A DNA stretch of 64,000 nucleotides from Protula sp. h YS-2021. Lineage: Eukaryota; Annelida; Polychaeta; Sabellida; Serpulidae. This document shows positions 40,456 through 58,216 of the stretch, piece by piece (the stretch's first letter is position 1; each line of letters starts with the position of its first letter). A program made the position numbers and the translations under genes. The notes beneath the pieces are model-generated. The model did no database searches, had not been told where the DNA came from, and saw only the letters and a list, made by a program, of their open reading frames with translations. The stretch is from NCBI GenBank assembly GCA_949752745.1, contig OX457026.1, forward strand, positions 74,154,742-74,218,741. Reading direction: 5' to 3'.

Positions 40456-40827
40456 AGTAGTATGATAATGGGGGTTCTACTGCACTTTGTGACGTCATAC
40501 TGTCTGGAAGTGACGTCATCATGTCTGGAAGTGACGTCATAGCGTCTGGACCGGAAGTGCTGTCTAGACCGGAAGTGTTGTCTGGAGTGGAAGTGACGTC
40601 ATCATGTCTGGACCGGAAGTGACGTCATCATGTCTGGACCGGAAGTGACGTCATCATGTCTGGACCGGAAGTCATGATAAGCGTTAGGATAGGCGCGACC
40701 ATCTGTGACGTCATCATGACGTCATACTGAGATGATGCTGTCTGGAGCGAAAGTGGTTTGGCCGAGTCAATCAACATGAAGCCAATGAACCCGACCTGTC
40801 AATCAGTGTAACCATGGCAACAGACCC
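40456..40827 (+). repeat. Polinton left terminal inverted repeat (372 bp)
   Basis: Almost perfect inverse of 57,824-58,216. The right arm has one extra 21-bp sub-repeat. It contains eight TGACGTCA (CRE) sites at 40,490, 40,511, 40,532, 40,594, 40,620, 40,646, 40,706 and 40,717. Two are CCGGAAGTGACGTCA ETS-CRE composites (40,613 and 40,639) within ~26-bp units. Confidence 0.97.
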
Positions 40828-40839
40828 TAAAAAGCCACG

Positions 40840-41340
40840 ACCCCCCCCCCCCCCCCCGAAATTGTGATTTTTTGCATATTTATCCGTTTCAGACGATTCT
40901 GAACATTTTGCATTTTTTGGGTCGACCGACCCCCCCCCCCCCCCCCCTCGAAATTGTGATTTTTGCATATTTATCCGTTTCAGACGATTCTGAACATTTT
41001 TCATTTTTTTGACCCCCCCCCCTCGAAATTGTGATTTTTGCATATTTATCCGTTTCAGACGATTCTGAACATTTTTCATTTTTTCGACCGACCCCCCCCC
41101 CCTCGAAATTGTGATTTTTGCATATTTATCCGTTTCAGACGATTCTGAACATTTTTCATTTTTTCGACCCCCCCCCCTCGAAATTGTGATTTTTGCATAT
41201 TTATCCGTTTCAGACGATTCTGAACATTTTTCATTTTTTCGACCCCCCCCCCCCCTCGAAATTGTGATTTTTGCATATTTATCCGTTTCAGACGATTCTG
41301 AACATTTTTCATTTTTTGGGTCGACCGACCCCCCCCCCTA
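40840..41340 (+). repeat. Left subterminal array, ~80-bp units separated by poly-C tracts
   Basis: Six units of CGAAATTGTGATTTTTGCAT...CCGTTTCAGACGATTCTGAA, each ending in a run of 8-17 C. Near 41,340-41,400 two copies of CTAGGACAGACTATGTAC mirror the right subterminal array. The frames seen here repeat with the array and are not genes. Confidence 0.92.
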
Positions 41341-41424
41341 GGACAGACTATGTACCCCCCCCCTAGGACAGACTATGTACCGACCCCCCCCCCCCAGGAG
41401 AACAAACTAAAAAAAAAAAAGTTG

Positions 41425-41478
41425 TGCTGAATCAGCATGATGAAATCGTTGATTCAGCATGATAAAATCGTATATAAG
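41425..41478 (+). promoter_or_regulatory. Left-end promoter: MARE-like sites plus TATA box
   Basis: A perfect 13-bp palindrome TGCTGAATCAGCA (41,425-41,437) is followed by a second TGATTCAGCATGAT and the TATA box TATATAAG (41,471-41,478). The region through CGTCAGACACACCAGCTAT is homologous to the inverted right-end promoter (57,531-57,600), although outside the TIRs. It drives the 41,532 gene; the ATG lies 54 nt after the TATA box. Confidence 0.7.
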
Positions 41479-41531
41479 TGTAGTGTCTCGAGGCTTAGGC
41501 ATCGTCAGACACACCAGCTATCAACATAGAC

Positions 41532-42677
41532 ATGGATGACTTTGAAACAGTTACTTTTGATGATACATTATTATCGTTGGAAGAGATAGATGCGTTCTTT
41601 GAAGACGCTGAAACAGCTTTGAAGGAAGCATTAGTTGTTCTGCCAGATGTCGCTACAGTGCAACAAGCAATGCCTCAGGAGGAAGCGTTAAATGCACCAT
41701 CAGATGTCGCTACAGTGCAACAAGCAATGCCTCAGGATGAAGCGTTAAATGCACCATCAGATGTCGCTACAGTGCAACAAGCAATGCCTCAGGAGGAAGC
41801 ATTAAATGCACCATCAGATGTCGCTGCAGTGCAGCAAGAAATGCCAGATCCTGAGGGGTCTGACTACCCGTTCTGGGTTGCGAATAGACTTATCAATGGT
41901 GACAACTCACAACTAAGTGCAAAGTTAAAAGCGCATCTAACACATTATGAGGAAAACGAAGTGAGTGATGATGATGAGGATTCAGAATTGGACATGTCAA
42001 GCGATAATGAGGATTCAGAAGTGGACATGTCAAGCGATGACGGAGAAGACAAACAGCTGAAATCTAAAATTGAATCGAGTAAGACCATACCTGTTACTGA
42101 GGAAGATGTTATAATGTTGAAACGGAACTTTCGAGCAGTACTTCCTCTGATTGATTGTAACATTTTATGGTGTTTATGTGAAGAAGGCTTTTTCAACAAC
42201 CACACGTACATGTATCTAACGGAAGAAGTGAATACCGTCATTCAACTCATCTACATGTTAGAAGGAAACACAGAACATGTTCCGGCGTCAGAGCCAAAGT
42301 TCTCCGAAGCTATGACTCAACGTTTCATTCAACTTATTAAAAGTCTTCATGAGGAACTTTTTAAGACTTTATCTCTACCGGCGCCAAAGTCTCTGGATGA
42401 GGATCGTGAATTCAAATGTGCAAAGGTCATGTTGCATGGTTTCAAATACCTTGAAGAACGCATTCATGTGTATGATATGATGGCTTACCTCTATGAAAAA
42501 GGACATTTCACTATGTCAATGCTGTTTCAATGGATACTAGGACATCGGACCCCAGGAGACTTTTTAGTGATTGTCATGGTACAATCGCTAAAAAACGGTT
42601 TACCAACAACCTTTCTCGACGGTTTCAATGACATGACTCCGCGATTTTACAAACATCTCATGAAAACCTACATGTAA
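41532..42677 (+). CDS. Polinton accessory protein with 19-aa repeats and two CARD-like folds
   Basis: 381 aa, first gene from the left end. Residues ~40-95 hold about three and a half copies of a 19-aa repeat (PSDVATVQQAMPQEEALNA). Residues ~140-175 are very acidic (Asp/Glu/Ser). The C-terminal half contains two helical blocks shaped like caspase-recruitment domains: about 194-240 (LKRNFRAVLPLIDCNILWCL...GFFNN) and about 299-360 (GFKYLEERIHVYDMMAYLYE...KGHFT). If right, it could engage host death-fold adaptors and so modulate apoptosis or innate sensing. No homologue is recognised with certainty, and the fold is judged from hydrophobic pattern only. The promoter is immediately upstream. Confidence 0.75.
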   Translation: MDDFETVTFDDTLLSLEEIDAFFEDAETALKEALVVLPDVATVQQAMPQEEALNAPSDVATVQQAMPQDEALNAPSDVATVQQAMPQEEALNAPSDVAAVQQEMPDPEGSDYPFWVANRLINGDNSQLSAKLKAHLTHYEENEVSDDDEDSELDMSSDNEDSEVDMSSDDGEDKQLKSKIESSKTIPVTEEDVIMLKRNFRAVLPLIDCNILWCLCEEGFFNNHTYMYLTEEVNTVIQLIYMLEGNTEHVPASEPKFSEAMTQRFIQLIKSLHEELFKTLSLPAPKSLDEDREFKCAKVMLHGFKYLEERIHVYDMMAYLYEKGHFTMSMLFQWILGHRTPGDFLVIVMVQSLKNGLPTTFLDGFNDMTPRFYKHLMKTYM

Positions 42678-42683
42678 CATCTG

Positions 42684-42690
42684 TATAAAA
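42684..42690 (+). promoter_or_regulatory. TATA box (TATAAAA)
   Basis: Seven bases after the previous stop. It lies 20 nt before ATG 42,710, so transcripts would probably begin beyond that ATG. This supports ATG 42,746 as the real start of the next gene. Confidence 0.6.
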
Positions 42691-42745
42691 GGAGGTAAAA
42701 CCATCTACAATGTCAACATTGCTTCTTCATCGATGTGTAGAGACC

Positions 42746-43144
42746 ATGGATGACGTCTTCAAAGTGAATTATGCTGACTATGTGTTTTCAAAGCTTCCTG
42801 CTTTTGAATCGGATTGGATGCTGCAAGTGAAGAACTTACATCAGCATTGGGAAGCTGTTGGAAAGACCATTCCAAGAGATCGTTTCATCCGCTCGTTTCT
42901 ACGTGAATGTGAAGATCTACATTTACCGTTAACTTATGACATTGATTTAGCATTTATCAACGTGAATACAATTTGGGCAGTTGAGCTCATGTTAGATGTG
43001 GCTGCAAGAATCATTTTACATTATGATGATGATGTTCCATTGAAGACGAATGTATCAGAGCTTGTCCGATTCAACCATGGACGAGTTGAAGTGAATTCAA
43101 AACTTTGCAAGTTCTTTGCTGACTCAGCAGATAGTTGGGTATAA
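42746..43144 (+). CDS. Polinton small accessory protein A (paralogue of the 43,903 gene)
   Basis: 132 aa from ATG 42,746 (context GACCATGG); the same frame is open from ATG 42,710. I prefer the inner start because of the TATA position and because MDDVFKVNYADYVFSKL aligns with the start of the 43,903 product (MDACFKNAYIDLMIAKL). Both also share an RFxxxFLxEC block and a following D-x-D...VE...V pattern. It is predicted all-helical, without signal peptide or membrane segment. Function unknown. The stop region overlaps the MARE of the next promoter. Confidence 0.75.
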   Translation: MDDVFKVNYADYVFSKLPAFESDWMLQVKNLHQHWEAVGKTIPRDRFIRSFLRECEDLHLPLTYDIDLAFINVNTIWAVELMLDVAARIILHYDDDVPLKTNVSELVRFNHGRVEVNSKLCKFFADSADSWV

Positions 43145-43224: not shown

Positions 43225-43877
43225 ATGGAGAACAAGACAAGCAACGCAACGCAGCGCAGCGCAGCAGCAGCTTTAAAATTAGTGCTAACTTAACCATTAC
43301 TGTGGAGCATGGAGAATATGGGCCATTTCTACGCATCACACGTGGAGAGAGATGGTGTGCTTATTCACCATCTTTGTGGAAGATTGTATGCCAAAGCTTG
43401 AAAAATTTACGCGACATTGGCTTCAAACTGTACTTAACGCAAACGAAGTGGCTTGAAGTCATTTCATACTTGGATATGCGCTATGTGAGTTTTGTGCGCA
43501 CGTCACGGTTTGAAGGGAAAGAATACACACATCACATCAACATGAATGATGGTGAATGGGAGACACTGCTTCAGGAGATGGACAACATCAACTCAGCCCT
43601 ATCACCATGTGAGGAATGTCATGACAAGAAAACGATCATCAAGCTGCAAAAGGATGGTCGGATGAAGGTGTCAAAGCTATCCAAGAAAAGGCTGGCTGAA
43701 GTTCAGTTGGAGAACATGAACGTACAAAATCAACTTGGACTTACCTGTGACTATTGCGGTGCTTGTGGATATGTGGAGGATTATCATTGCCACTGCCACA
43801 AGTATAATTGCAAGTTGTGTGAACCAAGCAACTTCTGCGGCAAGTGTGGAGTACTTAAAGTCAGTGAAGCAAAGTAA
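43225..43877 (+). CDS. PC4-like / Cys-His protein, apparently needing a -1 frameshift at 43,272-43,278
   Basis: ATG 43,225 opens a frame (MENKTSNATQ...) that stops at 43,291-43,293. Two codons before the frames separate is T TTA AAA (43,272-43,278), a canonical -1 slippery heptamer in the correct register. The -1 frame is open from 43,155 to 43,877 but has no early ATG. Its segment NLTITVE (43,287-43,307), upstream of the first GTG, aligns with NLTLEFKE of the paralogue at 51,604. The long part (about 200 aa) has two PC4-like half repeats, including YVSFVRTSRF...HINMNDGEWETLL, then a Cys/His cluster (CDYCGACGY...HCHCHKYNCKLCE...FCGKCG) likely to bind zinc. It may bind single-stranded DNA. A simple indel is the alternative. 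Confidence 0.7.
43272..43278 (+). promoter_or_regulatory. Candidate -1 ribosomal frameshift slippery site (T TTA AAA)
   Basis: X XXY YYZ heptamer in the zero frame of ATG 43,225; slippage enters the frame running to 43,877. The zero-frame stop is 12 nt downstream. I do not see a strong stem-loop in the next 60 nt, so stimulation is unproven. Confidence 0.45.
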
Positions 43878-43902
43878 AAAGCCCACAAGACACTGAAACA
43901 AG

Positions 43903-44412
43903 ATGGACGCATGTTTTAAAAATGCTTATATTGACTTGATGATTGCTAAACTTGCTTGCTGTGGCACTCCAGACTATCAACTTTATCATTTGGATGCTTT
44001 TTGGGATGTTGTACATCATAGTCTTGATGTGATTGAACTGCATTCAAGATTTCTTGGAGAATGTCATAAAACTGGAATAGAAGAAGATCCTGACTTTGAC
44101 TTTGATTCTGCACTTTATTCTGCTCGCACTGATGTGGAAGTATATTTCACCGTGGTTGATCATTTGAGAGATTGTTGTAAAGAAGAAGAGGAAACCGAGC
44201 AGCTTTATCAGGTAAGTTATAAAAACCTTTTTTAAACATGTTTATGACAACATAGTGAATTGTTTCTCAAAGACATAACAATGTTTTTCTTACTAGCAAA
44301 TTTAGTTTTATGTGAGTGGTTTCAACGTAAACAAAGAAAGAATATGATAGAAGAGGCAGCAAATATATTAAAAGATATTTTATTACAGGAAGAAACCGAC
44401 ATGTCAGAATAA
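43903..44412 (+). CDS. Polinton small accessory protein B, with a 177-nt intron (44,212-44,388)
   Basis: Exon 43,903-44,211 (103 codons) ends CAG|GTAAGT, the consensus donor. Acceptor TTTTATTACAG lies at 44,388, and exon 44,389-44,412 adds EETDMSE and a stop in the same phase, giving 110 aa. Unspliced, the frame ends at 44,235 after VSYKNLF. The N-terminal MDACFKNAY...KL and the SRFLGEC block mark it as a paralogue of the 42,746 gene. Function unknown; acidic C-terminus. The close agreement of both splice sites favours splicing. Confidence 0.65.
44281..44412 (+). CDS. Possible 43-aa small membrane protein (alternative to the intron)
   Basis: ATG 44,281 opens 43 codons: a hydrophobic start (MFFLLANLVLCEWF), a basic patch (QRKQRK), then a helix ending in QEETDMSE. 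It shares its last codons with the spliced exon of the 43,903 gene, so intron retention would yield this product. Evidence is only the open frame and its membrane-anchor look. Confidence 0.3.
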   Translation: MFFLLANLVLCEWFQRKQRKNMIEEAANILKDILLQEETDMSE

Positions 44413-44427
44413 AGAAGCAAAGTCAAC

Positions 44428-44865
44428 ATGAAGAATCTTGTACTATTCAGCGGTCATAAGGGCGTTCTTTCAAATATGTTTCCAACACGACTTGAAAAGT
44501 ATGGACATGTGTTCAACTCAAGTGAAGCGTTGTATCAATATGAGAAAGCAGTGTTTCATCACCGTCAAGATATTGCTTCAGCCATTGCTTCATGTAGAAA
44601 TGGATATGAAGCAAAACGTATTGCTAAAGTGATAAAGCCATGTCCTTTATGGCATACAGTGAAGAGAAGCAAAATGCAAGATGTTTTACAAGTCAAACTG
44701 GATCAGTGTGTATTGTTTCGCAACAAGTTGAAAGAATGTAAAGACAAAACTTTAGTTGAAGCAACGTATGATCATTGGTGGGGAGCTGGTGTGAAACAAG
44801 TGTCATCTAGATATCCTGGTCAGAATATCATGGGAAAGTTGTTAGAACTGTTGTGTGAGGGTTAG
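44428..44865 (+). CDS. NADAR-domain protein (YbiA-like ADP-ribose glycosidase family)
   Basis: 145 aa, the length of a single NADAR domain. Signature blocks: GVLSNMFP near the N-terminus (like LSNFxP), NSSEALYQYEKA (like SxEHxxQxxKA), a central Lys/Arg helix, LWHTVKRSKMQDVLQVK (W...M...VLxxK), LVEATYDHWWGAG (DxxWGxG) and GQNIMGKLLELL (GQNxLGxxLMxxR). NADAR enzymes cleave N-glycosidic bonds in riboflavin intermediates, and described members remove ADP-ribose from nucleic-acid bases. In this mobile element it may reverse host or rival NAD-based or ADP-ribosylation defence; that role is inferred. Own ATG; downstream of the accessory cluster. Confidence 0.88.
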   Translation: MKNLVLFSGHKGVLSNMFPTRLEKYGHVFNSSEALYQYEKAVFHHRQDIASAIASCRNGYEAKRIAKVIKPCPLWHTVKRSKMQDVLQVKLDQCVLFRNKLKECKDKTLVEATYDHWWGAGVKQVSSRYPGQNIMGKLLELLCEG

Positions 44866-44966
44866 AGACTTTTTCATTTGCTTGCCAACCGTCATGGTGT
44901 GCAGACGTGTGAACATGTAAATTTGAAGTATGTTTAACTTGTGTTGCATTGATTCAAGACTGCACA

Positions 44967-45299
44967 ATGGCGGACATGACACTGAGACAATATATTGTGC
45001 AAAAAGCTTATTGTGAAGAAATGTTATCCGCTGTAAAAAAGTTTGCATATTTAGTCTGTCCTGCTTGTCAACATGAAGAGTGTCAAGAACATACTTGTCA
45101 TTTTGCATCTGTTTATACATATTGGAATGAAGCTAAATATTACATGCATTTAGATAAAGTGTTAGAGAATGCAAATCAACGTTGTGAGAAATATGGTGTA
45201 GATGCTATTACATTGGATGAACTCAGTCATTGGTTAGTGTTCATTGAAGACCAATGGTCTCCAGTTATTCATACCATTGTATCTATACTTGATTTGTAA
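44967..45299 (+). CDS. Polinton accessory protein C, unrecognised
   Basis: 110 aa from ATG 44,967 (an upstream TTG at 44,949 is not used as a start). It is helical, with CPACQHEECQEHTCH in the middle, a possible metal-binding cluster, and a C-terminal DELSHWLVFIEDQWSPVI segment. The C-terminal half has a weak pattern match to accessory proteins A and B. Function unknown. Confidence 0.6.
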   Translation: MADMTLRQYIVQKAYCEEMLSAVKKFAYLVCPACQHEECQEHTCHFASVYTYWNEAKYYMHLDKVLENANQRCEKYGVDAITLDELSHWLVFIEDQWSPVIHTIVSILDL

Positions 45300-45352
45300 A
45301 AAACTTGTTAGTTAAGTTATAAATGCATGTTAGTTAAGTGATGTTGGTTGAG

Positions 45353-45360
45353 TTATAAAA
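45353..45360 (+). promoter_or_regulatory. TATA box upstream of the integrase
   Basis: TTATAAAA, 45 nt before ATG 45,405, preceded by GTTAGTTAAGTTATAAAT repeats. Confidence 0.5.
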
Positions 45361-45404
45361 TAAAAGCTGTTCTGTTGAGAAGGTGGTTTTCATTCGGTGT
45401 GACC

Positions 45405-46514
45405 ATGTCGACGTGGAAAGACTACTTGACCAATATTTACTTCAAACCTGGACAGCCTGGAGCATTTGCTGGTCCTTACAAACTGTATCACATCTTACGA
45501 AAACATAATCAACCAGTCACACAGTCACAGGTGAAGAAATGGTTGCAGGATCAAGATGCTTTTAGTTTACTCCAACCTGTCAAATACAGGTTCAAAAGAC
45601 AACGTGTCATTACACGTGGTATTGATGACATGTGGGATATTGATTTGGCTGATATGGGAAACATAGCTCCCTATAATGATGACATACGCTTTTTACTCAT
45701 TGTCATTGATGTGTTTTCCAAATATGTCTGGGTACAGCCAATACCTAATAAATCACATACCAGCGTCATACAAGCTTTCCAAAAGATTTTTCATGACACA
45801 CGACGAAGACCGCGAACTCTAAGGTCTGATAAAGGAACAGAATTTAAAAACAGATGGGTAAAAGCATTTTTGAAGAAAGAAGGCATTCATGCTTATACCA
45901 CAAAGAATGAAACCAAAGCCAACTTTGCTGAAAGAGTCATTCGTACTCTAAAGGGAATGATGTATCGGTATTTTCTACATAATCAAACTTACCGTTATTT
46001 AGACATTCTTCCAGACTTGGTGTACAATTACAACCATAGACCTCATGGTTCTCTTCCTAATAAATATGCTCCAGCCGAGATTCGTAAAGACAACGAATCA
46101 AAAGTGTGGAAGTATATGTATGTCGACAAACTGAAATTGAAACCTAAGAAGAAGAAGAAGAAGTACAAATTTAACATTGGTGATCATGTTCGCATTTCTC
46201 ACATTAAATATGTGTTTCAACGGGATTATCACATCAAATGGACGCAAGAAGTCTTCATTGTCACACATCGTTGTAAGAAGCAAGGAATACATTTATATCG
46301 TGTGAAAGACTTTTTAGACGAAGATATTGATGGTCATTTCTATGAAGAAGAACTGCAGAAAGTGACCAAAGATATTGAATCTATTTATAGAATTGAAAAA
46401 GTCTTGAAAACACGTAAAAGACGAGGAGGAGGTGTGAAAGAATTATTTGTCAAGTGGTTAGGTTGGCCAAACAAGTTTAACAGTTGGGTGAAAGAAACAG
46501 ACATTCAACAATGA
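45405..46514 (+). CDS. Polinton integrase (retroviral-type DDE) with C-terminal chromodomain
   Basis: 369 aa from ATG 45,405 (context ACCATGT); the longer open frame begins at a TTG. The N-terminal ~70 residues resemble the Polinton integrase leader (YFKPGQPGAFAG...VKKWLQDQDAFSL). The catalytic rve core has Asp80 (WDIDLADM), Asp142 (LRSDKGTEF) and Glu176 (NFAERVIRTLKG), a D,D(33)E arrangement. A Lys-rich linker follows, then a chromodomain at about 324-369 (YRIEKVLKTR...LFVKWLGWPNKFNSWV). It joins the element ends to target DNA, making the 6-bp duplication; the chromodomain may steer it to modified histones. Its stop overlaps the ATPase start (ATGA). Confidence 0.96.
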   Translation: MSTWKDYLTNIYFKPGQPGAFAGPYKLYHILRKHNQPVTQSQVKKWLQDQDAFSLLQPVKYRFKRQRVITRGIDDMWDIDLADMGNIAPYNDDIRFLLIVIDVFSKYVWVQPIPNKSHTSVIQAFQKIFHDTRRRPRTLRSDKGTEFKNRWVKAFLKKEGIHAYTTKNETKANFAERVIRTLKGMMYRYFLHNQTYRYLDILPDLVYNYNHRPHGSLPNKYAPAEIRKDNESKVWKYMYVDKLKLKPKKKKKKYKFNIGDHVRISHIKYVFQRDYHIKWTQEVFIVTHRCKKQGIHLYRVKDFLDEDIDGHFYEEELQKVTKDIESIYRIEKVLKTRKRRGGGVKELFVKWLGWPNKFNSWVKETDIQQ

Positions 46515-47170
46515 AGCATCCATTTACATGTTTGGTCTCTGGACCTACAGGCAGTGGCAAAACGTCTCTGGTGAAGGAAATTCTAGAACAAAAGTTGATT
46601 AAACCCTCTCCAAAAAGCATTTTATGGCTCTATGCAGCAGATCAGCCTTTGTACAAGGGAATGAAAGGCGTGGAATTTTACCAAGGCATTCCAGATGACA
46701 TTGAAGAGCGTTTTAACCCGAAGAAACCAAACTTACTTATCATTGATGACTTAATGACGAAATGCCATAGTGATGAGCGTATGACACGTCTCTTTAGTGT
46801 TGGCAGCAGTCATCAAAATCTAAGCATTATTTTTATTGTGCATAATTTATTCCATCATGGGAAAGAGATGCGAAATATTAGTTTGAATACACATTATATC
46901 ATTCTGTTTAAAAATCCGAGAGACAGTCAACAAATTAGTACATTGGCGCGGCAAATGTATCCTAGAAGATCTCAATTTCTCATAGAAGCCTATCAAGATG
47001 CTACTAGCAAACCTCATGGTTATTTATTCATTGATTTAAAACCAAAGACAAATGATCAACTACGTATTCGTACAGGCATTTTACCAAAAGATACACATTA
47101 TGTATATATTGATAAAGCAGTGTATGAACAAGAACCAAGTCATTTAACCATTCGCAGTCAAGATGTCTAA
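46511..47170 (+). CDS. FtsK/HerA (A32-type) DNA-packaging ATPase
   Basis: 219 aa starting MKHPFTCLVSGPTGSGKTS. The ATG overlaps the integrase stop; an in-frame upstream TTG is not credible. Walker A GPTGSGKT is at residues 11-18 and Walker B NLLIIDDL at 74-81, followed by SVGSSHQNLSIIFIVHNLF, the sensor/arginine region of viral genome-packaging ATPases, and QISTLARQMYP. It would pump the element's DNA into capsids. Length and motif spacing match Polinton ATPases. Confidence 0.95.
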   Translation: MKHPFTCLVSGPTGSGKTSLVKEILEQKLIKPSPKSILWLYAADQPLYKGMKGVEFYQGIPDDIEERFNPKKPNLLIIDDLMTKCHSDERMTRLFSVGSSHQNLSIIFIVHNLFHHGKEMRNISLNTHYIILFKNPRDSQQISTLARQMYPRRSQFLIEAYQDATSKPHGYLFIDLKPKTNDQLRIRTGILPKDTHYVYIDKAVYEQEPSHLTIRSQDV

Positions 47171-47489
47171 ACGTATTCGAGCGAACCAGCCGTTTCTTCA
47201 TTTGCTTGCACGCAGTGGGCCTAAACGACGTAAATCCTTGCTACAGCAAGCTACAAAGGAGGAATTAACAAGCTTGTTTGAAATTTGTTTGAATATATTG
47301 CAAGGACATTTACCCTTAAGCTCAAAACGGTTTAAGGAATTTAAACGTGAACGTCATACGCTACGTACTCTAGCAGATAAGAAGATATCCCTTCGACGAA
47401 AAAAGAAGTTGATTAATCAGAAAGGAGGATTCATTGGAGTTATTGCTAGATTGGCATTGCCCTTGTTAGCCAAACTGCTGCTAAAATGA
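47163..47489 (+). CDS. Small basic Polinton protein, probable virion/core component
   Basis: 108 aa, overlapping the ATPase gene by 8 nt. A conserved-looking order HLLARSGPKRRKSLLQQAT, EICLNILQGHLPLS, then LADKKISLRRKKKLINQKGG is followed by a hydrophobic C-terminus (FIGVIARLALPLLAKLLLK). This architecture is common beside capsid genes in Polintons and adintoviruses, where such proteins are thought to bind DNA in the virion. The biochemical role is unproven. Confidence 0.8.
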   Translation: MSKRIRANQPFLHLLARSGPKRRKSLLQQATKEELTSLFEICLNILQGHLPLSSKRFKEFKRERHTLRTLADKKISLRRKKKLINQKGGFIGVIARLALPLLAKLLLK

Positions 47490-49046: not shown

Positions 49047-49384
49047 AAGCTTATACACACGATCCGTCTGCATATCGCAACCATTTTCTTCGTCAAGTGG
49101 GCGGGGAATTACCAGGATTCAAAGGAGCGCGAATCCAGTATGGCGATGGTATTGGTTCAATACTGGGATCATTGGCTCGCAAAGCTATTCCACTACTTAA
49201 GGCTGGGGCTAAGATCGTTGCGCCACATCTTAAGAAGGCTGCAAAGAATGTCGCGAAAGATGTGACGGGTCGAGTAGCAGAACGTGTGTTTGGTGAACAA
49301 AAGCGTATGCAACCGACGAAACGTGTCAGAAGACGAAAAACAGCCAGACGGATAACATCAAAATATCGCAAAGATATTTTTTAA
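49043..49384 (+). CDS. Small basic adenovirus pVI/pX-like minor virion protein
   Basis: 113 aa; ATG overlaps the minor capsid stop. An N-terminal Gly-rich segment (GGELPGFKGARIQYGDGIGS) leads to an amphipathic helix (LARKAIPLLKAGAKIVAP) and a strongly basic tail (KRVRRRKTARRITSKYRK). The layout resembles adenoviral and adintoviral minor core/cement proteins that bind DNA or disrupt membranes after protease cleavage. Position between the two capsid genes supports this. Confidence 0.72.
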   Translation: MKAYTHDPSAYRNHFLRQVGGELPGFKGARIQYGDGIGSILGSLARKAIPLLKAGAKIVAPHLKKAAKNVAKDVTGRVAERVFGEQKRMQPTKRVRRRKTARRITSKYRKDIF

Positions 49385-50768: not shown

Positions 50769-51202
50769 ACACGAAGCAGATTGATGCCATATTGAGTCAT
50801 GATGTCATGACCAAAGACTTGTTTCAAGGCGTGTTTGCCATGGACCAGTTACCGTCTTTACAACGCGGTGCCTATGTGATCAACACAGACGATCAAGATG
50901 AACCAGGAGAACATTGGGTGGCAGTGTATTATGACAAAGACCCTGCAGAATATTTTGACTCTTATGGACTGTTCCCTCTCGATGATCGTTTAGATATGTT
51001 TTTAAGAAATGACTATATGTATAATTCTATATCATTACAAACGCCAATATCATCGTCATGTGGTTTTTATTGTGTCTATTATATATTACATAGAGCTCGA
51101 GGTCAGAGTATGTTTGATATTGTGAATATATTAAAAAGAAAGGATGGTGATTTTATTGTAAAGGATTTTGTATATAGACATTATAAACCATTGTTTTATT
51201 AA
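50765..51202 (+). CDS. Adenain-like cysteine protease
   Basis: 145 aa. The ATG overlaps the capsid stop. Catalytic residues of the adenovirus-type (C5/Ulp1-like) fold are in order: His50 (GEHWVAVYY), Asp65 (EYFDSYGLFP) and Cys99 (SSSCGFYCVYY), with Gln92 placed for the oxyanion hole. It would process capsid and core precursors during maturation. It is shorter than adenovirus protease (~204 aa) but normal for Polintons. It is the last rightward gene before the convergent region. Confidence 0.93.
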   Translation: MNTKQIDAILSHDVMTKDLFQGVFAMDQLPSLQRGAYVINTDDQDEPGEHWVAVYYDKDPAEYFDSYGLFPLDDRLDMFLRNDYMYNSISLQTPISSSCGFYCVYYILHRARGQSMFDIVNILKRKDGDFIVKDFVYRHYKPLFY

Positions 51203-51600
51203 TGTTGTTGTTGTTATATTAGTTAAGTTGTTGTTGTTGTTATATTAGTTAAGTTGTTGTTGTTGTTATATTAGTTAAGTTGTTGTTGTTGTTATATTAG
51301 TTAAGTTGTTGTTGTTAAATAAAACAAATCAAGTTTCAAACAACTGTCTTGTTTATTGTGTTCTATTTACAAATTCTTAACTACAAACACTATTTACAAA
51401 GTTTACAAACACTATTTACAAAGTTTACAAACACTATTTACAAACTCTTAACTACAAACGCTATTTACACTATTTACAAATTCTTAACTACAAATTCTAT
51501 TTACACTATTTACAAACTTTTATTTACACTATTTACACTATTTACAAAATTCTTAACTACAAACTCTTAACTACAAAGTCTATTTACACTATTTACAAAC
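51203..51600. repeat. Convergent intergenic region with simple repeats and opposing poly(A) signals
   Basis: TGTTGTTGTTGTTATATTAGTTAAGT repeats (about 26 bp, roughly five copies) to 51,315. AATAAA (about 51,317) serves the rightward genes and TTTATT (about 51,352) the leftward. Then come TTACAAACACTATTTACAAA-type repeats to 51,600. It separates the two convergent gene sets. Confidence 0.8.
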
Positions 51601-51603
51601 TTT

Positions 51604-51978
51604 TTATTTACAAACACATTCATTTTTCAATACATTCATCAATGAATACCATTCATTAGAATCTAAATTGATATAGGTATCATAGACATTACATCCATGT
51701 TTGTAAATGCTATGAAAGCTCACATAACACACATCACCAAACTTTATCACTTTAACAGTTACATGTTCAGACAGTTTCAGTTCATATCCTTCTTCTAAGT
51801 CAATGTCCATCACACGCATAGGTTGTGTCAGCTCAATGGATTTGGTGCCTCGTGTAAGCCATATTTCTGTTTCTTTGAATTCAAGCGTTAGGTTCTTTCC
51901 AATCCAATGCTTGTAACAGAGCGTACCATTCCACTGTGTTGAGGGTGATGTAGTCATAGTTTTCTGTAAGCTCGTCAT
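51604..51978 (-). CDS. PC4-like small protein, paralogue 1
   Basis: 124 aa from ATG 51,978, overlapping the next upstream gene by 98 nt in another frame; a later ATG at 51,957 is possible. NLTLEFKETEIWLTRGTK and YVSFHSIYKHG, YINLDSNEWYSLM align with the PC4-like protein at 43,225 and, more loosely, with the canonical PC4 fold at 52,664. PC4 domains form dimers that hold single-stranded DNA. Function here is inferred. Confidence 0.65.
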   Translation of the reverse strand: MTSLQKTMTTSPSTQWNGTLCYKHWIGKNLTLEFKETEIWLTRGTKSIELTQPMRVMDIDLEEGYELKLSEHVTVKVIKFGDVCYVSFHSIYKHGCNVYDTYINLDSNEWYSLMNVLKNECVCK

Positions 51979-52222
51979 ATTGGCGAAATTGTATAAACAC
52001 GTCTAAGCAGTTCTCAGTCACACGCACTTCTAATTCATTTGAGACTGCCAGGAGAAAGCCAGGTATCCTGAACTTCTCTAGATGGTCTTTCAACACGGAT
52101 TGGTCATCAAGTGATAGGACGAGATACTGTCCAAAATGTCTTAGCACAATGTCATCATATTCGTTTCTCAGATATGAGAACCCATGCGTAATTGGTTTAT
52201 ATTCCGTTAAAAAGTCTTCCAT
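51881..52222 (-). CDS. PC4-like small protein, paralogue 2
   Basis: 113 aa from ATG 52,222 (upstream TTG 52,231 ignored). ELEVRVTENCLDVFIQFRQY and YDYITLNTVEWYALLQAL repeat the strand-strand-helix pattern of its neighbours. It ends inside the start of paralogue 1. A weak TATA-like CATAAAAAAA lies near 52,274-52,283. Confidence 0.65.
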   Translation of the reverse strand: MEDFLTEYKPITHGFSYLRNEYDDIVLRHFGQYLVLSLDDQSVLKDHLEKFRIPGFLLAVSNELEVRVTENCLDVFIQFRQYDELTENYDYITLNTVEWYALLQALDWKEPNA

Positions 52223-52278: not shown

Positions 52279-52650
52279 TTATGCTCGCAAGATGGTGAAG
52301 AGTGGATGTTGTGTCACTTCTAGGAATCGCAAGACTGCGCGCCAGTTCTTGATATCAAAGATGATCAAATCTGTATATGGTGTATCTGGTACAACTCCCT
52401 TATAATCCTTTGGATAATCCTGTAAAAGATTTCTACAGATTTCTACACGTATGTTAGAATCATATTCAGCCACCGTCACTTCCACTTTATTTTCAAGTCT
52501 ACGTTTAAACCCAGCTTCAAGTGGTATGTTTTTAAAGTCTTTCCACACTTCAGGTTTAAACCGATGATAACTTGTCTTAGAATCTAGTATCACTTCATTC
52601 CTCTCATTGACAGTAAGGTAAACACCACCGTTCAGCATGAGTGCATTCAT
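52279..52650 (-). CDS. PC4-like small protein, paralogue 3
   Basis: 123 aa from ATG 52,650, 13 nt after the canonical PC4 gene. KVEVTVAEYDSNIRVEICRN and DLIIFDIKNWRAVLRFLE follow the same pattern. The sequence is strongly diverged, so the assignment rests on pattern and position. Confidence 0.6.
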   Translation of the reverse strand: MNALMLNGGVYLTVNERNEVILDSKTSYHRFKPEVWKDFKNIPLEAGFKRRLENKVEVTVAEYDSNIRVEICRNLLQDYPKDYKGVVPDTPYTDLIIFDIKNWRAVLRFLEVTQHPLFTILRA

Positions 52651-52663
52651 GATTGTTACCTTG

Positions 52664-53008
52664 TTATGACTTGTCGTCTTGTCTGCGAAGCCTTTTATCC
52701 ACTTCTTTCACCTGCTTCTTCAGCATTTTCCATTCAGGTATTGTCAGCAAGATACCCTTTTTCGTTGGACGGTTTTTTCCAGTCCCCTCATCTCTGAGGT
52801 ATTTGCGAATGTTTACCACACCTTCATTACTTTGTTTCATAATCTTGATATACTTTCCATTGCCTAGAGAAAGCATTCCATCCCACGACTGTGGTGTTGG
52901 TGCTATCTCCACTTTTAATTTCTTAATGGTAGTATCAGGATGTTTCACTTTCATGTCTTTGACTGTATCAGCAAGAGTATCCATATCCGTTGGTGCAGAT
53001 CTTTTCAT
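52664..53008 (-). CDS. PC4 (transcriptional coactivator p15)-domain protein
   Basis: 114 aa. The C-terminal ~65 residues are a clear PC4 domain: LGNGKYIKIMKQ, GVVNIRKYLRDEG, RPTKKGILLTIPEWKMLKKQ. Eukaryotic PC4/Sub1 and viral relatives bind single-stranded DNA as dimers and act in transcription and replication. Next to PolB it may serve as the element's ssDNA-binding protein. TATA box TATATAAG lies at 53,063-53,070, 55 nt upstream of the ATG. Confidence 0.85.
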   Translation of the reverse strand: MKRSAPTDMDTLADTVKDMKVKHPDTTIKKLKVEIAPTPQSWDGMLSLGNGKYIKIMKQSNEGVVNIRKYLRDEGTGKNRPTKKGILLTIPEWKMLKKQVKEVDKRLRRQDDKS

Positions 53009-53062: not shown

Positions 53063-53070
53063 CTTATATA
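53063..53070 (-). promoter_or_regulatory. TATA box overlapping the PolB stop codon
   Basis: On the minus strand PolB ends AGT ATA TAA, and the same bases form TATATAAG for the PC4 gene. The stop is 53,064-53,066. Confidence 0.6.
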
Positions 53071-56000
53071 CTGTAATGCCCATGCGCCAAAGTGGAATAG
53101 CCATCACTCATCACATATCGCTTGTCATCAAAGGGAGAGAGAGCCACTTTCCTCAACTTCTCCGAGAAGATCTGGTGGTTATGACTTCGAATGATGTGTC
53201 CTGTAGTCATCGTTTGCGTTTGGTTGAACAAACTGTCTCTATACTGCTGATGTTTCATCCGTCTTTGACACGCGCGAGTGATGCCTTTGGCCGTACGTTT
53301 TTCTTTCCCACCATACATCATACTATACATTTTCGGCCGAAGTCCAACAAACTCTTCAATGGGAATGCCCGCCGTCTCATCTTTCATTTTCCCAAGCACT
53401 TTCTTGTTCACGTTGGAATGTAGGAAATGATCTGGCGGATAGTCACTTGTGTCGAACAAGTCAGCATCTTCCTGCATGTCTTTGTATATATCTTCCGTTT
53501 CTATGTCATAACATAGACTGTCGGTGTCGCTGAACAAGAGTTTGGCGTTGGGATACTTGGTCATGATGTAGTTGTAATGAAAGTGGAACATGAGCACTTT
53601 GCTGAGGTCGAGAATGGTGAACCCAACTTGAATGGGTTTATCCAGAAGCAGATCCACTTTGCGTAAATGTACCGCGGTCAAATCTTCGTTGAAAATTCTA
53701 AATTTGTGGAAGGAAGGTTTGGCTACAAGTTTCTTGAACCGCTTTTCCTGGTGAACAAGTTCCACATTGATGCGTTTTCTTACATTTTCCATGGTTTTGC
53801 CAAACACCGAGTTGTTCATCAATTTGAAGAAGTCTTTCTCAAACGGGTTCTTAGCCAACTTTCTCTTTTCCGTGTTCAAGGAGATGTATTTTGCCAACCA
53901 TTTGCTCTGTGCAAACATGATGGCACGGTGCACCTTCGCGACTTTCAATCCCAGTGAGACATATTGCTGTAAATTTCTATAATGAAGCACATATTTCTTC
54001 TTGTCACACAAGTTGGGAATGAGCTTTTCACTAGGCTTGCTTTTCATGTCTAGATCTTTCCGTAGCTTCTGACTATGTTTTGACAATTCTCCCACTTTCA
54101 CACATTTCCGTTCTGGAGCCACTGGGTAGTGATTATGATGATCATGAATTGAATATGGGTATTCCAAATCCACTTCTAAAATGTATCCAATCTCGTCATC
54201 TTCATCCACATCCATAAAGTCAATGGATTCTGGCTCGCTCACCCACATAAATCCACTTTCCGGCATGCTTTGCGACATAGCCCAGCCATACAAGTTGTTT
54301 GCATCCAGGTACGTCAAGTAGTTGGTTGGTTTCGTGGGATCGTAATCTGGTACGTAGGGGTTATTTGCTTTCGCATACTTGTGTGTGATGACAGATATTC
54401 CTCCACGTAGACCTTGTTCAACCATTTGGTACATGTCAATGTCGTTAATCAATTCCAATTTCACCTTTGTCGCTTTCAACATGGCATCCCACGACAGTCC
54501 TGGCGCTGTATAGTAGTGAGCAGGATCTAATTCATACGTGTTGAGCCATACGTTTTCAAACACGTCAGCCAGCAGCAACACATCTGATTTCAGGTACAAG
54601 TCATGGTATTCACCAAATGTAGTACAGTGGAATGTCTCCCACACCTTCTGCGCATGCGCATAATCCTCATCGCTAATGTCTTCTTCACTGAGTAGACTGT
54701 AAAACTTGTCCTTGGACGGCAGTTGTGTTTCAGCAAACTTGGATGGCTCATCCACGTAATCATAAGGGTATACTCCCTTTCTCAACAGTAACTCTTGTTG
54801 GTCGCTATCGTGAATGTGTGACGTCATGTGATAAAAGTTGTCTTTCCCTTCTGCTGCCAGGTTGGAGACCAACTTCTGTAGAGAAGTACTCATGAACTGA
54901 AAGCTGTCTGTAAATTTCAGATTGCTCATGGTGAATGCAATATATTTCTCAACGGTGTTGGGAATGACTGTAATGGTTTCATTTTTGAACTTTCCAATTT
55001 CTTCCATGATCAAATGACTGTCATAGCCTCGTAAATTGTGGAAAAAGACAGGAATGATGAAAGAATCTTCAACATCCTGCTTATCCTTTCGAAATCGAAA
55101 TTGTAAATTGCATTCATTATGTGCAGCTCCGCGGTATTTGCCATTGATATGATCATGATCTCTCACACGATCTGCTCCTAGAGGCTCATGACAAATGTAG
55201 CAATCTGTGGCGTTCTTATAATGCTCTTCATCTTCACAAGTCATGACTATTTTCTTTTTCTGCTGTAGACCATGCACAATACGATCACGTTCATATACCA
55301 TATGGTCTAAAAAGACTTTCACGGCATTATCGCCTCGATATACGACTGGAGCACGTGTCTCATACTGGCTGACAACCACGTAGGCAAAGCTGTTTGGACG
55401 ATGATGTTGATACTTGTCTCCTTCATGCTTTTTCGTGAAACATTCAAAGTCTGCATAAATGACAAACGGCGCTCGCTGTTGTTTGGCTACATTCTTGAAC
55501 TTGATGAAGGGTTCCTTGAGAAATGATAAACGTTGTGCGCCATGCTTGCCACACACTTCACGATGCTTGTCTAACAGATCTTGTCGTATAAACCCGTGAA
55601 GACAGTTGAAACAATAAAATGCTGCAGCCTTATGCTTTGATCGATAAGCCATCAGTCTGCTGAAATTCTTGATGAGGCAATAATGTCTTGTCTTGTCATT
55701 GCTAATCAAAAGCAAGTTGATTTCTCTGGCGCTGTTGGCGCTGGTGTTTCGACTGAGTTGTATGGGAACAACGACATCATGTTCATATCCAAACACATTG
55801 ATAGAAACATCATTCTCCTTTTCAAACTTTGGAATGTCTGTAATCGGTGTTGGAAATGTCATGCCTTCCACCTTCAATTCGTTCTCAAATGACTTGTATT
55901 GATTCACACGCTCTGGGTTTACATTTGTTGAAGGGTGAAGGTGAGCCAATACAGACCATAAGAAACATTTGTTGTCTTTATTCTGAATGTTTAACACCGC

Positions 56001-56741
56001 CTTTGTACTCTTTACTTTCTTCGGTAGTGGGATAAAACTGCTTGCTTCCAGTGGCGCTGACGTAGCTGTATGCACTTCAATGAATAATATGTTATCCAAC
56101 ACCCAGCCAGAGCCTTGTCGCTCATGTTCATCAAACCTAGTAAACAATTCTTTATAGGCTTCTGGCAAGTCCTTCTCAATATCTGTTGGATTGTATGCTG
56201 CATACGTTGGACTACTGATGAAGGCATTATCCACTTGTTCTACCATCACGCCTTCAACATTTGGTGTCATTTTCTTGAAGCGTGCATGTACCACAATGTA
56301 CCATTTCATACCACGGTTTAACGTCTCTAGCAAATGTCTCTTGATTCTATTCTCTTGTTGTCGCATTTCGAGTAGCAAATCCGATCCATCTTCAGGCTCA
56401 AACCGCCTTTCCTGCGCGTTTTCACCAAGACTCACTCTTCTGCCTCTGCCTATTTGTCCTGTCTCTTTCTTTCTTTGTTCTTCATGAGACACATTTTCCA
56501 TCTCAGCACATGCATGTGTCTCAAATGCATCCAAAGATGAAAATATCTTGGCGCATTTACAGCAGAGGACTGGATCAGGTCTGTCAACACCATCTTGTAC
56601 GGTTTTTCGTCTCTTGGCTTCAATCTGCTCAACAAGCTCTTCATGAGCACGTTTCATCCTAGCTGGTTTGCATGTGTGTGTCACGAACACTTCCAGAGAT
56701 GGAAATGTCACATCACAATCATGACAGTAGACTGGTGCCAT
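53064..56741 (-). CDS. PolB: Protein-primed family B DNA polymerase (Polinton PolB)
   Basis: 1225 aa from ATG 56,741 (the frame is open to a GTG at 56,795). Two CxxC...HxC fingers (residues 6-24 and 60-78) and a third C2H2-type finger near 374-395 precede the polymerase. Exonuclease motifs: YADFECF (~429), FHNLRGYDSHLI (~565), YLKSDVLLLADVF (~718). Polymerase motifs: A YLDANNLYGWAMS (~815), B FFKLMNNSVFGKTMENV (~975), C LLFSDTDSLCYD (~1070). An endonuclease-VII/HNH-like insertion (CYICHEPLGADRVRDHDHIN..., ~512-545) lies between Exo I and Exo II. It replicates the linear element from a protein primer bound at the TIRs. Intact. Confidence 0.96.
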   Translation of the reverse strand: MAPVYCHDCDVTFPSLEVFVTHTCKPARMKRAHEELVEQIEAKRRKTVQDGVDRPDPVLCCKCAKIFSSLDAFETHACAEMENVSHEEQRKKETGQIGRGRRVSLGENAQERRFEPEDGSDLLLEMRQQENRIKRHLLETLNRGMKWYIVVHARFKKMTPNVEGVMVEQVDNAFISSPTYAAYNPTDIEKDLPEAYKELFTRFDEHERQGSGWVLDNILFIEVHTATSAPLEASSFIPLPKKVKSTKAVLNIQNKDNKCFLWSVLAHLHPSTNVNPERVNQYKSFENELKVEGMTFPTPITDIPKFEKENDVSINVFGYEHDVVVPIQLSRNTSANSAREINLLLISNDKTRHYCLIKNFSRLMAYRSKHKAAAFYCFNCLHGFIRQDLLDKHREVCGKHGAQRLSFLKEPFIKFKNVAKQQRAPFVIYADFECFTKKHEGDKYQHHRPNSFAYVVVSQYETRAPVVYRGDNAVKVFLDHMVYERDRIVHGLQQKKKIVMTCEDEEHYKNATDCYICHEPLGADRVRDHDHINGKYRGAAHNECNLQFRFRKDKQDVEDSFIIPVFFHNLRGYDSHLIMEEIGKFKNETITVIPNTVEKYIAFTMSNLKFTDSFQFMSTSLQKLVSNLAAEGKDNFYHMTSHIHDSDQQELLLRKGVYPYDYVDEPSKFAETQLPSKDKFYSLLSEEDISDEDYAHAQKVWETFHCTTFGEYHDLYLKSDVLLLADVFENVWLNTYELDPAHYYTAPGLSWDAMLKATKVKLELINDIDMYQMVEQGLRGGISVITHKYAKANNPYVPDYDPTKPTNYLTYLDANNLYGWAMSQSMPESGFMWVSEPESIDFMDVDEDDEIGYILEVDLEYPYSIHDHHNHYPVAPERKCVKVGELSKHSQKLRKDLDMKSKPSEKLIPNLCDKKKYVLHYRNLQQYVSLGLKVAKVHRAIMFAQSKWLAKYISLNTEKRKLAKNPFEKDFFKLMNNSVFGKTMENVRKRINVELVHQEKRFKKLVAKPSFHKFRIFNEDLTAVHLRKVDLLLDKPIQVGFTILDLSKVLMFHFHYNYIMTKYPNAKLLFSDTDSLCYDIETEDIYKDMQEDADLFDTSDYPPDHFLHSNVNKKVLGKMKDETAGIPIEEFVGLRPKMYSMMYGGKEKRTAKGITRACQRRMKHQQYRDSLFNQTQTMTTGHIIRSHNHQIFSEKLRKVALSPFDDKRYVMSDGYSTLAHGHYSI

Positions 56742-56800
56742 CGTTGTTGCTTCTTCAACTGCTGGAACTGAAATGAAGTAAAATATACGTTTCACTCTTC

Positions 56801-56835: not shown

Positions 56836-56946
56836 GAATGTATCACTAGTTGACTAGTTGACATGTTTCACTCATGCTTTTATGCTACTTCCATGTAATC
56901 AAAATATGGTGTGTAACTTTTCAAACTTGTTCCAAAATGTTAAAAT

Positions 56947-56959
56947 TGCTGACTCAGCA
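56947..56959. promoter_or_regulatory. Exact T-MARE upstream of PolB
   Basis: TGCTGACTCAGCA, the same 13-mer as at 43,117; about 140 bp upstream of the PolB TATA box. Confidence 0.6.
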
Positions 56960-57127
56960 GAATTTTACTTGTGTATATGAATGTCTCACTTACAGTTGTG
57001 AAGTTGTACAGCTGCACTGCTACACAGCAGAGACATCTAGCGGTGAAGTTAATTGGTCTGCCAAATGGTATTCATCCGCCAAATGGTATTCATCCGCCAA
57101 CTAGACCTGAAATGTGATAAAATGTAT

Positions 57128-57192
<65 letters not shown>

Positions 57193-57255
57193 TGTTTTGC
57201 TTCATTTCATAATATAGGATGGCCCTTAAAAGGGCTCGAAATATTTTAGTATATA
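56960..57255. other. Intergenic spacer with CT/CA microsatellite
   Basis: (CT)n(CA)n at about 57,129-57,189; ATTCATCCGCCAA direct repeats at 57,065-57,100. No gene. Confidence 0.6.
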
Positions 57256-57531
57256 TCAGCAGCAGTTATGGGGTTGTCCCTCATATTCCAACCACACTTG
57301 ACATTTGCAGTATCGTTGAGTCAGTGTTACTATGCGGTTGTTCCACATAAATGTAATTACTACGTCAGGCTTCACTGCAGTGATCTGAGTTGGAAATTGT
57401 AGCACCTCCTCCAAAGCATATGTAATATCAGCTGCTTCAGCTTCATCACACATATTTACCCAGATGCAAACAGATTCATTCGCTTGAAACGCTGTTAAGT
57501 CATCAATGATGATAGCTGGTGTGTTATCCAT
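57256..57531 (-). CDS. Right-end Polinton accessory protein, unrecognised
   Basis: 91 aa from ATG 57,531; the longer frame to 57,642 runs into the TATA box and G-tract array and is unlikely. It contains IIIDDLTAFQANESVCIWV and ends in a Cys-rich segment (YCKCQVWLEY...CC). Its promoter is the inverted homologue of that of the left-end gene, so the two may be co-expressed. Function unknown. Confidence 0.55.
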   Translation of the reverse strand: MDNTPAIIIDDLTAFQANESVCIWVNMCDEAEAADITYALEEVLQFPTQITAVKPDVVITFMWNNRIVTLTQRYCKCQVWLEYEGQPHNCC

Positions 57532-57570
57532 GATGTGTCTGACAATGTCTCTAAGCCTTGAGACACCACA

Positions 57571-57600
57571 CTTATATAGGATTTTATCATGCTGATTCGG
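57571..57600 (-). promoter_or_regulatory. Right-end promoter, inverted homologue of the left one
   Basis: On the minus strand GAATCAGCATGATAAAATCC is followed by TATATAAGTGTGGTGTCTC. The left promoter has the same order with few changes, although both lie outside the TIRs. Confidence 0.7.
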
Positions 57601-57609
57601 CAAAAATGT

Positions 57610-57823
57610 TTGTTGCTCTCCTGGGGGGGGGGGTCGGTACAAAGTATGTCCCTGGGGGGGGGGGGGGGTCGGTACATAGTCTGTCCTAGGGGGGGGGTCG
57701 GTACATAGTCTGTCCTGGGGGGGGGGGTCGGTACATAGTCTGTCCTAGGGGGGGGGGGGTCGGTACATAGTATGTCCTAGGGGAGGGGGGGGGGGGTCGG
57801 TACATGGTCTGTCCTGGGGGGGG
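57610..57823. repeat. Right subterminal array, ~31-bp units with G tracts
   Basis: Six units of GGTCGGTACATAGTCTGTCC separated by runs of 8-14 G. Two inverted copies sit at the left end. The Pro-rich frames across it are artefacts. Confidence 0.92.
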
Positions 57824-58216
57824 GGGTCTGTTGCCATGGTTACACTGATTGACAGGTCGGGTTCATTGGCTTCATGTTGATTGACTCGGCCAAACCACTT
57901 TCGCTCCAGACAGCATCATCTCAGTATGACGTCATGATGACGTCACAGATGGTCGCGCCTATCCTAACGCTTATCATGACTTCCGGTCCAGACATGATGA
58001 CGTCACTTCCGGTCCAGACATGATGACGTCACTTCCGGTCCAGACATGATGACGTCACTTCCACTCCAGACAACACTTCCGGTCTAGACAGCACTTCCGG
58101 TCCAGACGCTATGACGTCACTTCCAGACATGATGACGTCACTTCCAGACAGTATGACGTCACTTCCAGACAGTATGACGTCACAAAGTGCAGTAGAACCC
58201 CCATTATCATACTACT
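57824..58216 (-). repeat. Polinton right terminal inverted repeat (393 bp)
   Basis: Inverse of the left TIR with one additional 21-bp unit near the tip. Nine TGACGTCA sites. Confidence 0.97.

Follow-up and report, generated by a model that had tools for sequence, protein, structure and literature searches.

Boundaries and gene content of the element

We analysed a window of 64,000 nucleotides from the polychaete Protula sp. h YS-2021 (C3:74154742-74218741; the assembly searched comprises 863 Mb in 218 contigs, and C3 is a chromosome-scale contig of 106 Mb). Positions 40456-58216 of the window (17,761 bp) hold a Polinton/Maverick element with exact ends, a target-site duplication (TSD), near-zero age, many near-identical siblings and genes that show signs of purifying selection. 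Its presumed capsid frame contains a stop that the siblings checked do not have. We read it as a young insertion from an adintovirus-like Polinton/Maverick family in active amplification, with proposed roles for its genes, and give this reading a probability of about 0.75. The ends are made up as follows.

40450-40455, no strand: TSD AATATC, left copy (junction reading)
40456-40827: left terminal inverted repeat (TIR), 372 bp, starts AGTAGT; 8 TGACGTCA (cAMP response element, CRE), 5 CCGGAAGT (ETS) and 5 composite GGAAGTGACGTCA motifs
57824-58216: right TIR, 393 bp, finishes ACTACT; 9 TGACGTCA, 5 CCGGAAGT and 6 composite GGAAGTGACGTCA motifs
58217-58222, no strand: TSD AATATC, right copy (junction reading)

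An earlier note on this DNA had held that the ends can be called to the base, that TIRs of 372 and 393 bp agree almost perfectly but for one 21-bp unit, and that a 6-bp AATATC duplication is present; all three statements were borne out. The junctions read AATATC/AGTAGT at 40456 and ACTACT/AATATC at 58216, with identical copies of AATATC flanking the element. Aligning the arms gave 0 mismatches over 372 common positions, far beyond chance, the sole difference being one additional 21-bp unit in the right TIR; the main inverted repeat has 339 nt and a complementarity of 100%. The identification as a Polinton likewise stands, given TIRs with AG-type ends and a 6-bp TSD, an rve integrase, an A32-like ATPase and a family B-type polymerase. 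No empty AATATC site was found in the one host-genome assembly searched, in which the joined flanks matched only both sides of this insertion.

From the left, the plus strand carries acc1, acc2, acc3, acc4, NADAR, acc5, integrase, ATPase, two small open reading frames (ORFs), the presumed minor capsid gene, a small basic ORF, the presumed major capsid gene and the candidate C5 protease gene. On the minus strand, read from the right end, lie the 91-aa ORF and then the genes for polymerase, PC4, m3, m2 and m1. Tandem repeats of 26 and 36 bp lie at 51203-51603, between the converging gene modules. Pfam cut-offs were passed by the integrase, the ATPase, NADAR and PC4. The core genes for replication, integration and packaging are listed here.

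45405-46514, plus strand: integrase, 369 aa from the first ATG, rve core and C-terminal chromodomain (Pfam)
46484-47170, plus strand: packaging ATPase, A32/IVa2 type (Pox_A32 5.1e-7, Adeno_IVa2 1.1e-6, both over cut-off)
50765-51202, plus strand: candidate adenovirus-type (C5) protease, 145 aa (Pfam E 3.5e-4)
53064-56741, minus strand: DNA polymerase of predicted protein-primed family B type, open frame (1243 aa as listed, from 56795), including N-terminal segments that are zinc-finger-like and EndoVII-like

The integrase matched rve at 8.2e-11, over the cut-off, and Chromo at 6.9e-8, and the protease match reached 20.7 bits, slightly under the Pfam cut-off of 21.3. The polymerase itself gave no DNA_pol_B_2 match up to E 10 in Pfam. 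At a threshold of E 0.001 it has at least 7,993 homologues, some of the best 120 of which carry a family-B domain, and homologues at 64% identity across the entire searched region (P0009) carry PF03175; named relatives among the matches listed came from molluscs and corals. The catalytic motifs DANNLYG, NNSVFG and FSDTDS are present, invariant or nearly so among 18 homologues, and we assign the predicted enzyme to the protein-primed family B type. By eye, its N-terminus (NIQNKDNKCF) contains an NxxDxxCF motif, which could be part of an OTU-like domain; Pfam gave no OTU match. As sole query against IMG/VR the polymerase returned 0 matches, and its alignment returned two contigs at 39%; none of the ORFs of 80 aa or more that were read there looked, by eye, like NADAR or PC4. 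Residues 527-565 of this minus-strand product form an endonuclease VII-like zinc segment (Pfam 8e-4, PHROG 2.7e-5), whose Cys and His residues are invariant among the 18 homologues.

Age, siblings and copy number

The insertion is recent, as had been claimed. In addition to the arms without mismatch, the nearest sibling (C7:5.26 Mb) differs from the window by 2 substitutions and 1 gap over 43302-47170 (3,869 bp), and the most distant of 15 siblings by 70 substitutions and 6 gaps over the same stretch. Zero differences in 372 bp put the 95% upper age at 1.6 million years, assuming 2.5e-9 changes per site per year, or 0.4-4 million years across assumed rates of 1e-8 to 1e-9.

Of 1,552 first-look candidates in a genome search with the left TIR, 40 were scored, and these gave 44 matches. 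All 12 TIR pairs examined, the window's own included, end in AGTAGT...ACTACT and are flanked by an identical 6-bp TSD, which is different for every pair. In seven pairs the arms showed no mismatch in the compared stretch, and the remaining pairs had 1-3. One pair spans just 6.8 kb and probably represents an internally deleted copy. The NADAR gene occurs in at least 150 places at 96% identity or more among the matches listed from 2,805 candidates, and is stop-free in 149 of these 150. Because 12 of the 15 siblings fall at lower identity, outside those 150, the genome holds at least 162 copies of this gene; their Polinton nature was checked for the 15 siblings only. The view that few animal copies are this complete thus fails for this genome, where 12 of 12 examined TIR pairs have TSDs and the NADAR copies are so numerous. 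High copy number as such is not new: in Mercenaria mercenaria, Mavericks make up 1.69-1.93% of the genome, according to the available part of PMC8905726. What the family offers is many datable copies, each with its own TSD, in one assembly.

Accessory genes and selection

Features of the accessory blocks and small ORFs without family match are the following.

41532-42677, plus strand: acc1, 381 aa, acidic, 57-bp tandem repeats, no family match
42710-43144, plus strand: acc2, 144 aa, no family match
43903-44235, plus strand: acc4, 110 aa, variable C-terminus, no family match
44964-45299, plus strand: acc5, 111 aa from the first ATG, no family match
47163-47489, plus strand: 108-aa ORF, no family match
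47486-48064, plus strand: 192-aa ORF, no family match
57256-57531, minus strand: right-end ORF, 91 aa from ATG, no family match

The genes acc2, acc3, acc4, NADAR, acc5, integrase and ATPase were present in all 15 siblings. acc1 was full-length in six, a remnant in one and absent from eight, and no substitute family was identified in the short slot of the siblings that lack it. The ratio of nonsynonymous to synonymous divergence (dN/dS, pooled pairwise over distinct copies of the same length) was 0.56 for acc1, 0.32 for NADAR, 0.21 for acc2, 0.19 for acc3, 0.17 for the integrase, 0.11 for the ATPase and 0.09 for acc5; acc4 had a dS of 0 and hence no value. For PC4, m1, m2, m3 and the polymerase, dN/dS was 0.08-0.56 in three siblings (the m1 of the third left out), and none of 14 sibling comparisons contained an inner stop. 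Since the copies are close kin and partly recombined, these values are indications only, and as such they point to purifying selection on the genes of the element. Inner stops were seen in one integrase copy (L058) and one acc1 copy (L060), and 11 of 15 acc4 copies had a length offset that is not a multiple of three, always near the C-terminus.

In one sibling (L057, 5219-5946), m2 and m3 share 82-85% protein identity with those of the window (dS 0.33 and 0.20), whereas dS is 0.08 for its polymerase and 0.06 for its PC4. This patchwork of divergent m2/m3 and near-identical polymerase/PC4 may reflect exchange among lineages with nearly identical TIRs.

The idea, formed by eye, that acc1 adopts a CARD or death fold was dropped: an AlphaFold model computed without relatives had a mean predicted local distance difference test score (pLDDT) of 47.7, and neither PDB nor Pfam gave a match.

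Motif arrays in the terminal inverted repeats

Inward of the TIRs lie the following features.

40828-41400: C-rich spacer with 75-91-bp tandem repeats, between the left TIR and the putative promoter region
41471-41478, plus strand: TATATAAG box (by eye) in a 48-bp motif, about 50 bp before the first ATG
57571-57578, minus strand: TATATAAG box (by eye), matching 41471-41478 in inverted orientation; the right-end ORF has its ATG about 40 bp further on
57619-57828: G-rich tandem repeat spacer, right end

The TIRs are dense in TGACGTCA (8 left, 9 right) and CCGGAAGT (5 in each), compared with means of 0.04 and 0.01 and a maximum of 1 each among 1,000 dinucleotide-shuffled versions of the right arm, a null that ignores the arrangement of the sites in tandem units. 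The composite GGAAGTGACGTCA occurs nowhere else in the window. It is the core of the ETS-CRE promoter motif to which GABPalpha and CREB1 bind cooperatively, as described in the available part of PMC4555227, and the TIRs contain the same exact overlap; the TIR units read have CAT in place of CAC, a difference in the final base of the longer form that was published. The 15-mer CCGGAAGTGACGTCA, which appears in the title of PMC3464117 (available in part), occurs twice per TIR. Inward of both arrays, a 48-bp repeat that is 92% complementary between the ends contains the TATA-like TATATAAG.

From these motifs, the TIRs may act as a pair of enhancers for two early units that face inward, a proposal to which we give nearly an even chance. 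There is a substantial minority chance that the arrays are instead a by-product of tandem repeats serving replication or capsid packaging, with no regulatory role. The motifs sit in repeat units of 18, 21 and 26 bp, and tandem duplication by itself multiplies motifs. Nor are the motif columns significantly more conserved than the rest of the TIR: across 18 TIRs, 5 of 65 motif positions were variable vs 35 of 307 elsewhere (one-sided p 0.26), and in a second comparison 10 of 117 vs 30 of 255 (p 0.23). These points weigh against enhancer TIRs. A mere by-product, on the other hand, fits poorly with an exact ETS-CRE overlap kept by three unit types, with the 4-5 composites kept in 18 of 18 TIRs, and with the TATA-like boxes inward of both arrays. 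Our literature search returned, among the matches listed, no paper joining Polintons or adintoviruses with CREB or ETS.

The NADAR gene

44428-44865, plus strand: NADAR gene, 145 aa (Pfam 1e-18, over cut-off; PHROG 1017, a phage family, 8e-30)

The product belongs with the NADAR/YbiA family by its domain match and by its active-site residues E33, K40 and E111, which were present in 16 of 16 copies. Motif, spacing and an alignment with ybiA match them to E43, K50 and E125 in the P. nicotianae protein described in the available part of PMC11543638. The element differs from known carriers of the family in being a Polinton: a NADAR survey (PMC9503650, available in part) names phages, nucleocytoplasmic large DNA viruses and RNA viruses as bearers, which use NADAR against ADP-ribose, and the words adenovirus, virophage and polinto are absent from its main text. 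Our literature search found, among the papers listed, none joining NADAR with a Polinton or adintovirus.

We consider it somewhat probable, inferring from sequence, that the gene serves as a counter-defence against ADP-ribosylation. Two observations weaken this reading. Matches to solved structures were poor, with ybiA at E 0.03 behind unrelated hydrolases at 0.008, and the NCBIfam riboflavin-pathway and anti-phage NADAR models both matched below their cut-offs. Searches for relatives of the protein gave 16 candidates in the protein collection, none at E 0.001, and in IMG/VR one pattern match and no relative. The gene might instead encode a metabolic N-glycosidase of the riboflavin pathway, gained by chance and without any part in counter-defence. 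The NCBIfam riboflavin N-glycosidase model does match it at 1.1e-17, with 64.7 bits under a cut-off of 73.7. The phage NADAR family fits better, though, the gene is kept in all 15 siblings at the dN/dS given above, and the viruses of the survey turn NADAR on ADP-ribose, so that the metabolic alternative is improbable. Purifying selection on such a gene during a burst of young copies suggests that an animal DNA element is under pressure from ADP-ribosylation.

The interrupted presumed capsid frame

48285-49046, plus strand: 253-aa ORF in the minor-capsid (penton) position (gene order only)
49043-49384, plus strand: 113-aa basic ORF between the presumed minor and major capsid genes
49395-50762, plus strand: presumed major capsid frame with an internal stop, TAA in frame at 50427-50429 (gene order, homologue alignment)

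The capsid genes are named by the gene order of the vertebrate Maverick map (PMC8097293, available in part), and the assignment of 49395-50762 as the major capsid gene is weak. Against it stand the lack of a significant fold or PDB match and Pfam searches of 21 homologues that reached just E 0.15-0.18 to jelly-roll/capsid models (one member each). None of the homologues listed (best 120 of 218) is named as an adintovirus hexon. For the ORF in the penton position, profile searches with Pfam, PHROG and NCBIfam found no family match.

The TAA leaves 344 aa upstream, followed by 111 residues of matching open frame. Searched separately, the pieces before and after the stop matched 120 and 105, respectively, of the same best 120 homologues. 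In 104 of the 105 with both, the pieces lie exactly one codon apart, and most of these proteins have 434-502 aa; 14 of the 15 listed homologues without the second piece have at most 346 aa. Over a 423-bp stretch around the stop, all 15 siblings align gap-free and stop-free. The statement that all core genes are present therefore needs correction for this copy, in which the presumed major capsid frame is broken by a stop seen in none of them. With its frame interrupted, the copy would be unable to make the full-length presumed capsid protein; its capsid gene is presumably non-functional, and any spread would now depend on sibling proteins.

The stop could instead be a sequencing or assembly error in an intact copy: it is a private change in a copy that otherwise has next to none (see the nearest sibling above), and the frame behind it is undecayed, at about 82% identity to the nearest homologue. 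As a single-base change rather than an indel, in a chromosome-scale assembly, it is nevertheless quite unlikely to be an artefact. Another reading, in line with the earlier note, is that of a complete reference copy, fully coding and autonomous. In its favour are perfect ends, TIRs and TSD and uninterrupted frames for integrase, ATPase, protease and polymerase, but the presumed capsid frame stops 111 residues early where homologues and all 15 siblings read through, which leaves this picture very improbable. That the short product is a functional isoform or is read through, as suggested for some adintovirus hexons (two adintoviruses have C-truncated hexons, for which the available part of PMC11071296 speculates on non-standard translation), is scarcely credible for a stop that none of the siblings shares and that lies inside a region kept by 105 of 120 listed homologues.

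PC4 and PUR-like proteins

43302-43877, plus strand: acc3, 191 aa, candidate PC4/PUR-like paralogue, Cys-rich C-terminus; GTG first codon as listed
51604-51978, minus strand: m1, 124 aa, candidate PC4/PUR-like paralogue
51881-52222, minus strand: m2, 113 aa from the first ATG, PC4/PUR-like (predicted fold)
52279-52650, minus strand: m3, 123 aa, candidate PC4/PUR-like paralogue, weakest link of the set
52664-53008, minus strand: PC4 (p15)-type single-stranded-DNA-binding protein, 114 aa (Pfam 2.3e-9; solved PC4 structures, best 1.7e-7)

Polintons are thought to replicate by protein-primed synthesis, and to our knowledge no recognised single-stranded-DNA-binding protein is known for them. The protein at 52664-53008 matches the canonical PC4 domain. 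In the structural model, m2 is predicted to form two beta4-alpha repeats in the arrangement of Pur-alpha, agreeing with Pur-alpha I-II over its whole length. Several results weigh against the wider set. Foldseek with m2 returned nothing at E 0.001 or better, the best hit being an unrelated entry at 4e-3 and Pur-alpha scoring 0.08-0.16; m3 belongs to the set by pattern alone; and m1, m2, m3 and acc3 had no Pfam match up to E 10 save one at 0.23, and none to PUR. For want of a PUR match in sequence, we call these four proteins PUR-like in fold and not members of the family. They differ from Pur-alpha in this respect and in being multiplied into a set within one element. A literature search pairing Polinton and PC4 found no paper. 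No paper joining Polintons or adintoviruses with Pur-alpha or Whirly was among the matches listed; PMC4981718 holds Polinton together with single-stranded-DNA-binding protein. The available part of PMC11071296, on adintoviruses, yielded no mention of PC4, CARD or death domain. A conserved PC4/PUR-like set adjoining the polymerase makes the question of a single-stranded-DNA-binding protein in Polintons directly testable.

Comparison with known elements and proposed life cycle

The element resembles vertebrate Mavericks, as described in the available part of PMC8097293, in its TIRs, 6-bp TSD and (AGT)2//(ACT)2 ends, in its two opposite-strand gene modules facing the centre with accessory regions at the ends, and in its integrase, ATPase, polymerase, candidate C5 protease and presumed capsid genes. 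Vertebrate elements measure 12.7-24.6 kb with a mean TIR of 402 bp; at 17.8 kb and with TIRs of 372/393 bp, the present one is of similar build. It differs in that the ATPase adjoins the integrase on the capsid strand, whereas theirs lies in the polymerase module, and in having NADAR, PC4/PUR-like genes and one broken presumed capsid frame. With adintoviruses (PMC11071296) it shares an rve integrase with C-terminal chromodomain, a defining trait; it may also share an OTU-like domain at the N-terminus of the polymerase, to which the NxxDxxCF motif could belong.

In the life cycle that we propose, protein-primed DNA synthesis starting at the TIRs would copy the element, and its own integrase would insert it. 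PC4 and the PUR-like paralogues, whose genes follow that of the polymerase or lie in the accessory block on the left, may coat displaced single strands. The NADAR protein would remove ADP-ribose that host enzymes attach to macromolecules of the virus or the host. The TIRs might double as host-factor (ETS/CREB-type) enhancers driving two inward-facing end promoters. A joint reading goes further: the family would possess its own single-strand-coating set (one PC4, four PUR-like) as counterpart of the adenovirus DNA-binding protein, NADAR would strip ADP-ribose from the element's DNA or from other molecules and so allow replication under a host ADP-ribosylation defence, and the TIRs would be both replication ends and GABP/CREB-type enhancers. 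Taken as a whole this is tentative and rather unlikely to hold in every part; if true, these three components together may explain the presence of well over 100 nearly identical young copies in this one genome. What is new about this Polinton is its accessory and regulatory make-up, to which we assign functions provisionally, from sequence.

Other elements and flanking sequence

About 3.5 kb to the right of the element, window positions 61717-62772 (minus strand) hold a ninjurin-type segment (Pfam E 3.2e-5, 24.2 bits vs a cut-off of 26). At the far left, 546-2405 (plus strand) contains RNase-H-like and tyrosine-recombinase-like fragments with weak Pfam matches, probably a decayed DIRS-type retroelement (label by eye). 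In the left flank (25036-28117), a stop-free stretch of 105 codons recurs almost unchanged at 25036, 26420 and 27803, in a tandem repeat with a spacing of about 1,384 bp.

DNA_pol_B_2 gave 84 matches in the host genome, none at this element and many in open frames of 1,351 aa. Eight fetched loci (L003-L010) resemble the polymerase of the element over a short stretch only (33-37%) and thus encode other polymerases; judged by sequence, the 84 matches would mark a further family of elements that has amplified in this genome. Some polymerase fragments stand in mirror-image pairs a few kb apart (C3:98126045-98130955 and C5:28717970-28724608) and are perhaps inverted or nested copies.

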